Assembly (NCBI GenBank): GCA_949300615.1
Contig: CASGEW010000012.1
Location: 1-44,067, forward strand
Direction of reading: 5' to 3'
Source of the DNA: an uncultured Bacteroidales bacterium
Lineage (GTDB): Bacteria > Bacteroidota > Bacteroidia > Bacteroidales > CHK158-818
Length of the DNA: 44,067 nt
The notes beneath the pieces were generated by a model. That model worked only from the letters and a program-made list of their open reading frames with translations. It was not told where the DNA came from and did not search any database. Position numbers and translations under genes: made by a program. Of the stretch, positions 33,957 through 35,452 are shown one piece after another. The first letter of the stretch is position 1. Each line of letters begins with the position of its first letter.

Positions 33957-35198
33957 TTACAGGAAAGCCGATAAAGAGGAGATGAAAGCCCATTTGATAA
34001 TATCGTAGATCGCATCGTGTTTTAAGGAAGAGAGATTTTTGCCGATGAATTTTTTTAAACCTAACCGGTCCTTTTTTTTCACCATCTGGACAACCTGTTG
34101 GGTTTGCGGCGAAGATAAATCTATGTGGGGATTGCTTTGAATCTTCTCTAACAACTCGTCGAAGTTGATTTGGGCAATCAGGCAATTGAAATCCTCGATG
34201 ATATATTTGTTGTTAATGTCCTTGATAATTTCGTAAAGGTTTCGGTACTCATCTTGCGCAAACGAATCGTCTATTTTAAATGCCAGATGGACGATGGGAC
34301 ATTGCTCTATGTCAAACCGTTCGCCTTTTAACAGTTTATTCAGCGATTTTTTTAAGAACGATACGACCTTCTCTTTTTCTACGTCGGGGTTGTCGGCATT
34401 TTGGGATAAGAATTTCAGCGCATGGATCAATGCCTGCTTTTCGGCGTGGATGCGTAAAAGGGCTGTCCGTAGATTCAGACAGAATCTGAACGCCTCCGTT
34501 CCGGCGGTCTCCCGGTTAATTACCCAGCAGGGAATCCCTTGATACTGGGTATAGTAGAGTTTGATAAATGGGTCCCACTCTCCGCTTACCATTTCCAGGG
34601 CGTCGAAGCAGTCATACAAGCCGTTAGCCATAACCTCGTTATCGAATAGTTCGATCATGCAGATGGGAGTTCCTTTTTCCACCCAATAGGCGTTGACCTG
34701 GTTGAGGGCATTGTGCTTGCTGGATGCGTTTAGGTATAGTTGCGCCAGCTGTTTTCCCGCTTTTAAAAGGCGCGTAGATTGTACCCCTCCGCAAGTATCG
34801 TTTATCCCGGTTGTCAGATTTAAATGGTATTGCAGGACATCGGATAGAAAATTCCGGCTATTGGCAGTTGCTTCACAAATGACGTAACTGGATTTGTTCT
34901 CAAATTTACACAATAGATAGCCGTCAGAGTAGAAACGGTTTTCGTCGTTTTTAAATCGCAGAAAAGAGGGCTGTTGCGTTGGCCCTTTCCGTATGATTTT
35001 TAGCGCATGGTTTGCCGCACAATAGTTGTTCTCTCCACAACAGTAGAAGTCGCGGTAGATGTGGCGTTTTTTCATGGCTCCGAAATAACGGATAAATTCG
35101 TTCGGATCAGGAGAGGAGAAATAAGGTTTACTGATTTTGTGCGACTGGTTTAAAAACATCCTGTAATCGCAAATGGGAAGTTGTGTCGTAATTAACAT
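33957..35198 (-). CDS. Hypothetical protein, family not recognised
   Basis: I do not recognise this 414-residue protein. I start it at MLITTQLPICDYRMF (35198); in-frame ATGs at 35210 and 35246 exist, but a 9-base hairpin covers 35220-35244. No signal peptide or clear internal membrane segment is visible, so it looks cytoplasmic. A Cys-rich patch lies near the N terminus (DFYCCGENNYCAANHALK), further cysteines follow (TCGGVQST, MIELFDNE after PIC), and the middle is helical (FCLNLRTALLRIHAEKQALI). The C terminus has a basic helical stretch (VKKKDRLGLKKFIGK) and a hydrophobic end (IIKWAFISSLSAFL). It is transcribed alone from a distant promoter, without partners. Base composition is similar to its neighbours. 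Confidence 0.7.
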   Translation of the reverse strand: MLITTQLPICDYRMFLNQSHKISKPYFSSPDPNEFIRYFGAMKKRHIYRDFYCCGENNYCAANHALKIIRKGPTQQPSFLRFKNDENRFYSDGYLLCKFENKSSYVICEATANSRNFLSDVLQYHLNLTTGINDTCGGVQSTRLLKAGKQLAQLYLNASSKHNALNQVNAYWVEKGTPICMIELFDNEVMANGLYDCFDALEMVSGEWDPFIKLYYTQYQGIPCWVINRETAGTEAFRFCLNLRTALLRIHAEKQALIHALKFLSQNADNPDVEKEKVVSFLKKSLNKLLKGERFDIEQCPIVHLAFKIDDSFAQDEYRNLYEIIKDINNKYIIEDFNCLIAQINFDELLEKIQSNPHIDLSSPQTQQVVQMVKKKDRLGLKKFIGKNLSSLKHDAIYDIIKWAFISSLSAFL

Positions 35199-35219
35199 AG
35201 TAGCAGACATTAAAATAAT

Positions 35220-35244
35220 GGAGAGAGAATTAAAATCTCTCTCC
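35220..35244 (-). promoter_or_regulatory. Leader hairpin ahead of the unknown gene
   Basis: Stem GGAGAGAGA (35220-35228) with TCTCTCTCC (35236-35244), 7-base loop, 22 bases before the chosen start at 35198. On the minus strand it is followed by an AT-rich ATTATTTTAATG. It could modulate translation or act as a weak attenuator. Confidence 0.45.
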
Positions 35245-35421
35245 ATTTAGGGCATAAACCTTATAGTTTTTGTATAATCTAAACTCATGCATTCGTTATG
35301 AATGCTAAAAAAATTCGTCGTTTGAAACAGTATTGATATTTGTCGCCCTTTTGATTGAATTATGCTTTCATAATCCCTATATACAAATCAAAAACTGAGT
35401 CAGTCCGATCAGAATCTGTTA

Positions 35422-35452
35422 CAAAGATAGGAAAAGTTTTCGGTTTTTACAA
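35422..35452 (-). promoter_or_regulatory. Promoter of the unknown gene
   Basis: Minus-strand TTG (35452-35450), 20-base spacer, TATCTTTG (35429-35422): a full Bacteroidetes consensus. The start site would be near 35415, giving a leader of about 215 bases before the ATG at 35198. Confidence 0.7.

Follow-up and report, generated by a model that had tools for sequence, protein, structure and literature searches.

We asked what a solitary gene behind a long leader does in an uncultured Bacteroidales bacterium with a genome of 2.41 Mb. The gene lies in a window (the whole 44,067-nucleotide stretch of DNA that was analysed), and the original prediction described its product as an orphan of no known family whose structured leader suggested regulated expression. 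Is the gene real, where does it start, does it have relatives, and what might these relatives say about its function?

The gene and its start

The coding features of the locus are as follows.

33957..35198, minus strand: gene for a 413-residue protein (open reading frame; dN 0.035 and dS 0.62 against G001)
34239..35198, minus strand: conserved N-terminal core, about residues 1-320 (14-member alignment; boundary set by eye)
33960..34187, minus strand: helical module of the C terminus, residues 338-413 (specific to the lineage; a poor model scores best at 340-389)
33960..34016, minus strand: hydrophobic C-terminal 19 residues (no other 19-mer of the protein is as hydrophobic; KD 1.11)

In its maximal reading the frame runs from 33957 to 35246 on the minus strand, 429 codons at most. 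The gene likely starts at 35198, giving 413 amino acids and a stop codon, because in the congener G002 the frame from the upstream ATG at 35246 is closed by a TAA after 13 codons, and because, of the 11 distant homologues introduced below, 6 (those of Rhizobium, Nitrosomonas, G435, G970, G723 and G957) have their annotated start, or the first one possible, at the residue of 35198. In the remaining homologues (G646, G299, G664, G450 and Streptomyces) the frame extends further upstream of that residue, and in the first four of these the start was placed there by hand. Given the stop in G002, a start at 35246 is unlikely.

Orthologues are present in both congeners, with 92% identity to the window protein in G001 and 74% in G002. 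The comparison with G001 yields a dN/dS of about 0.06, while dS against G002 is saturated. The distant homologues and the low dN beside the higher dS rule out a spurious frame and, taken together, indicate a real gene under purifying selection.

A rare family with a conserved core

As predicted, the window protein falls in no known family: no match was found in Pfam, NCBIfam, PADLOC (none at E values up to 1) or the PDB, and no clear profile match arose for it. Pfam recognised no EAD in it, the PDC-M14B model did not match it, and the best PHROGs scores were only E 0.056 and 0.25. No phage or viral homologue was found in viral scans, which reach only what short patterns reach. We read a match in Rhizobium indigoferae (E 0.8) as chance; the overlying ORF looks unrelated. 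The structure models (mean pLDDT 45 and 40) are uninformative and provide no evidence of a new fold: Foldseek returned no match at E <0.001, and the VIA rows, up to Z 7.5, were confined to the helical stretch at residues 235-333.

The protein is nevertheless not the orphan it was taken for, since 11 distant homologues were found. The first came from a Rhizobium plasmid (tblastn E 1e-4; pairwise E 9e-16) and the next from Nitrosomonas and Streptomyces plasmids, and profile searches then added five more from Bacteroidota and a further three, with profile E values down to 8.8e-71. These homologues are spread over Bacteroidota, Pseudomonadota and Actinomycetota and have a core of about 320 residues in common. 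In the alignment of 14 members (the 11 distant homologues and three from the window gene's own genus) D11, R13, G40 and D92 are invariant, and the window protein accordingly has the core pattern of D11-x-R13, G40 and D92; R45, E56, R244, R249 and E253 are other conserved polar residues of the core. The Cys-rich N-terminal patch highlighted in the original prediction did not prove to be a feature of the family, as C53, C54 and C60 are not kept outside the genus. The Pfam, NCBIfam and PADLOC copies that were searched lack the core family, which is a statement about those copies and not about what is in print.

Members are few in every sample, the samples overlapping so that their counts are not additive. 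With its own genome counted each time, a member was present in 6 of 395 Bacteroidota genomes, 4 of 395 Bacteroidia genomes and 5 of 393 Bacteroidales genomes, the last made up of three from its own genus and two weak partial matches (G085 and G036, E 3e-4 and 6e-4). Of two other genera, one gave 2 of 65 genomes and the other one full member among 99. On these alignments and counts the family is real, rare and scattered across distant bacteria, and because it is so patchy we infer that its members have been transferred horizontally. The family tree mixes phyla with weak support, so that a single origin would also fit.

We note that the Rhizobium member starts 49 bases past a tRNA-Val gene (L006:6904-7025) and has an integrase gene 1.4 kb downstream; it may thus belong to an element that has integrated there. 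The contig of the G646 member (L017:1-8300) appears by eye to join unlike pieces, its first ORF opening as an ABC ATPase would and changing into another protein, so the assembly may have cut that member.

Exchangeable C-terminal ends

The window protein's C terminus is basic and then hydrophobic, and hydropathy confirmed what had been predicted on this point. In 10 of the 14 members (three of them from its own genus) the most hydrophobic 19-mer of the protein lies within the last 60 residues. A KD of 1.6 is a usual cut for a transmembrane segment, and among these ten tails only that of Nitrosomonas (KD 2.03) exceeds it, the window tail standing at 1.11. The other four members are those of G957, which ends in EAD11, of G646, which ends early, and of G450 and G435.

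Beyond the core the members differ. For instance, G299 and G664 are 59% identical in their cores and 32% in their ends, whereas G299 and G970 are 26% identical in their cores and 34% in their ends, and an end of the G970 type is found on an N-terminus that looks unlike the core in a 284-aa ORF of G1168 (L049:1489-2343, E 1.4e-9). EAD11 forms the end of one of the 14 members, that of G957 (6e-10), in whose genome there are 11 EAD11 matches, that of the member included, 10 of them above the cut-off. PDC-M14B matches the ends of two members, from Rhizobium (3.3e-4) and Nitrosomonas (8.9e-8), and 3 of 11 members match PDLC04449, a PDC-M14B model of PADLOC; other PADLOC matches, to 'chat' (1e-4) and Cas11f (0.025), concern one member each. 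In G450 and G435 the gene of the member overlaps one downstream that encodes a membrane protein (with KD peaks of 2.42 and 1.93), and the G450 partner repeats the end motif of the core protein, with 15 of 28 residues identical and none of 2000 shuffles as good. These comparisons show a core joined to exchangeable C-terminal modules.

For the window's own module, no second copy was found in the three genomes of the genus (G000, G001 and G002) at E values up to 1, and no plasmid match was found. Two matches on other proteins among 218 genomes (E 0.003 and 0.008) were set aside, as their ORFs suggest chance. In Nitrosomonas the final 141 bases of the gene are repeated without change 142 bases past its stop (L009:8586-8726), in what resembles a spare C-terminal cassette.

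Defence genes around the distant homologues

Genes matched by PADLOC lie within about 4 kb of 7 of the 11 distant loci, a raw count that carries no random control. They are HamB-like and PDC-M58A genes in Rhizobium, PDC-S19 and a type III methylase in Nitrosomonas, HamC2 in Streptomyces, DrmA and DrmB at the G664 locus, a type IIG fragment at G435, Tmn at G970 and a type II methylase at G723. At the G299, G450, G957 and G646 loci no such gene was seen by eye, and a PADLOC scan of one neighbour (L020:8774-9862) gave no match.

Promoter and leader

The following features precede the gene.

35422..35429, minus strand: promoter -7 element TATCTTTG (TAnnTTTG in all three congeners, with a TTG some 20 bases further upstream)
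35357..35376, minus strand: hairpin P1 (present in 3 of 3; a U-A stem pair becomes U-G in G002)
35335..35349, minus strand: long-range helix P2, 5' side, AGGGCGAC... (leader fold)
35289..35305, minus strand: hairpin P3 (6-bp stem identical in all three; loop lengths 5, 9 and 14 nt)
35249..35265, minus strand: long-range helix P2, 3' side, ...GCCCT (two pairs changed on both sides)
35217..35248, minus strand: hairpin P4, 12 pairs (ends 18 nt ahead of the start codon; present in 3 of 3)
35247..35288, minus strand: 13-codon frame (present in the window, not conserved)

A promoter had been predicted ahead of the gene, and its conservation in all three genomes agrees with this; we take TATCTTTG to be a promoter element of the Bacteroidota type. 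The leader holds the two predicted hairpins, P1 and P4, in all three genomes, but that description was incomplete, as the P2 helix is also present and encloses the small P3. Against dinucleotide shuffles the three leaders fold with z values of -3.25, -2.65 and -2.56; of 200 shuffles each, 0, 4 and 4 did equally well. In G000 and G001 the 12 bp of P4 pair perfectly, a hairpin that none of 1000 shuffles produced, and G002 retains it by means of a G-U pair. P3 alone is at chance level, with a similar 6-bp hairpin in 559, 432 and 746 of 1000 shuffles. The covariation in P2 is only suggestive, resting on two double-changed pairs in three sequences, with 49 of 500 column shuffles as high.

Between the window and G002, identity reaches 43/47 in the block of P1 and the 5' side of P2 and 44/49 in the block of the 3' side of P2 and P4, as compared to 869/1233 in the coding sequence, 57/123 in the upstream intergenic region and 35/66 in the middle of the leader. 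Among coding stretches of equal length, 5 of 1193 and 7 of 1191 match these blocks, so that they stand at the top of the coding range and not beyond it. The leader is thus real, with a promoter and two conserved blocks that keep about 90% identity in the farthest congener. Its conservation argues against a transcription start near 35198, which would have removed it, and together with its better-than-shuffled folding suggests controlled expression, in keeping with the original prediction.

The 13-codon frame does exist in the window, although it shrinks to MRL-stop in G001 and MRDRIL-stop in G002, and a leader peptide of this kind was therefore dropped. A 3-codon frame inside P1 (35357-35376), ATG AAA GCA followed by a stop (MKA), is kept in 3 of 3, its stops being TAA, TAA and, in G002, TAG. 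An exact-pattern search for the leader motif in viral contigs found none.

What the protein may do

We favour, with a little more belief than doubt, a role in conflict or defence with a C-terminal end acting on the membrane, and regard this as the best-supported reading, because of the core homology, the exchange of ends, the split forms, the PADLOC neighbours at 7 of 11 loci, the patchiness of the family and the conserved leader. The window gene would then belong to a rare and scattered family whose proteins serve in conflict, probably against phages, and in which the core would sense or relay a signal of infection, the C-terminal module would assemble by like-with-like contact, and the hydrophobic end or a membrane partner would act on the membrane and stop the cell. 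The folded leader, above all P4 ahead of the start codon, would hold expression low until needed, and may in this way serve as a switch. A defence activity, its trigger and an action on the membrane are presumed here for a family in which most tails are only moderately hydrophobic. Counting against this role, no EAD, PDC or other model matches the window protein, its genome holds neither a second copy of its module nor an EAD11 (none was found in G000, G001 or G002), its neighbours look ordinary by eye, and the gene keeps its place in all three congeners, which is untypical of a mobile defence gene. The tails, of which that of Nitrosomonas alone exceeds a KD of 1.6, the uncontrolled count of neighbours and the uninformative structure models weigh on the same side.

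A bolder form of the proposal is that these proteins constitute a new class of immune protein, an undescribed sensor core that swaps membrane-acting ends (a helix of its own, EAD11, or a membrane protein encoded by a separate, overlapping gene), of which one gut lineage has fixed a solo copy under an RNA switch. We put this forward tentatively, and would sooner expect it to fail than to hold.

Alternatively, the core itself might be a toxic or signalling enzyme, the C-terminus serving only for localisation or assembly. The residues D11, R13, R45, E56, D92, R244, R249 and E253 could make an active site, and, as PMC7159879 describes them, EADs mostly come fused to domains with an effector or signalling role; however, the core matches no enzyme family, and the membrane partners in G450 and G435 suggest an effector outside it. 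We consider this possible but on balance improbable, and since it overlaps both the conflict reading and the one that follows, the likelihoods expressed here do not sum to one.

The main rival is domestication, in which a conflict gene acquired long ago now has a regulatory or housekeeping task in the genus. The gene occupies one place in all three genomes, behind the same two upstream genes in each, among ordinary-looking genes with no defence neighbours by eye, and these surroundings make domestication a serious rival. It is a solo gene, inherited along with its surroundings; its GC content (0.435) is like that of the window (0.44), and its low dN/dS and conserved leader point the same way. 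Purifying selection would equally fit a defence gene, however, the genus sample amounts to only three genomes, and its relatives occur patchily and for the most part close to defence genes, so that we hold domestication to be rather unlikely. On the downstream side, the G002 orthologue has a 784-aa ORF (L005:3973-6327) in a position taken by other genes in the window and in G001.

That the leader, conserved and better folded than shuffles, is beyond a cis switch a separate antitoxin-like or guide RNA partnering the protein seems very improbable, as Rfam gave no match above the gathering score nearby (chance-like hits only), the motif is single-copy in the genome (no other with 3 or fewer mismatches) and the structure stops 18 nt ahead of the start codon of the same gene.

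Comparison with known systems

Returning to the conflict role, three kinds of system invite comparison. Membrane-acting abortive-infection effectors are an established class, which the family would resemble in having a sensor-like part and a hydrophobic tail or membrane partner; this likeness is so far one of layout rather than of sequence, and most of the family's tails are moderately hydrophobic. A second comparison is with PDC-M14, a phage defence candidate of PADLOC, whose PDC-M14B model covers the C-terminal parts of two members, from Rhizobium and Nitrosomonas; the matches leave the N-terminal cores uncovered, and the window protein has none. Our literature searches found no paper under the name PDC-M14, nor one on an uncharacterized two-gene membrane effector.

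The third comparison is with the EAD-coupled NTP-dependent conflict systems (PMC7159879). No VMAP, GAP1 or other core component was identified in the family, its N-terminal core has no library model, and the window protein has no recognised EAD. In the systems described by Kaur et al. (2020; PMC7159879) copies of an EAD on two components bridge them by homotypic contact, and within the scope of that description the family is alike in its exchangeable C-terminal modules, one of which is EAD11, and in the short motif that the G450 member and its neighbour both carry. A core with no model in the Pfam, NCBIfam and PADLOC copies searched is yet found in three phyla, often near defence genes. The conserved leader would be an instance in Bacteroidales of a possible immune gene controlled by RNA, and, if the family is immune, it would offer modular conflict systems a new core whose natural fused and split forms make the mechanism testable.
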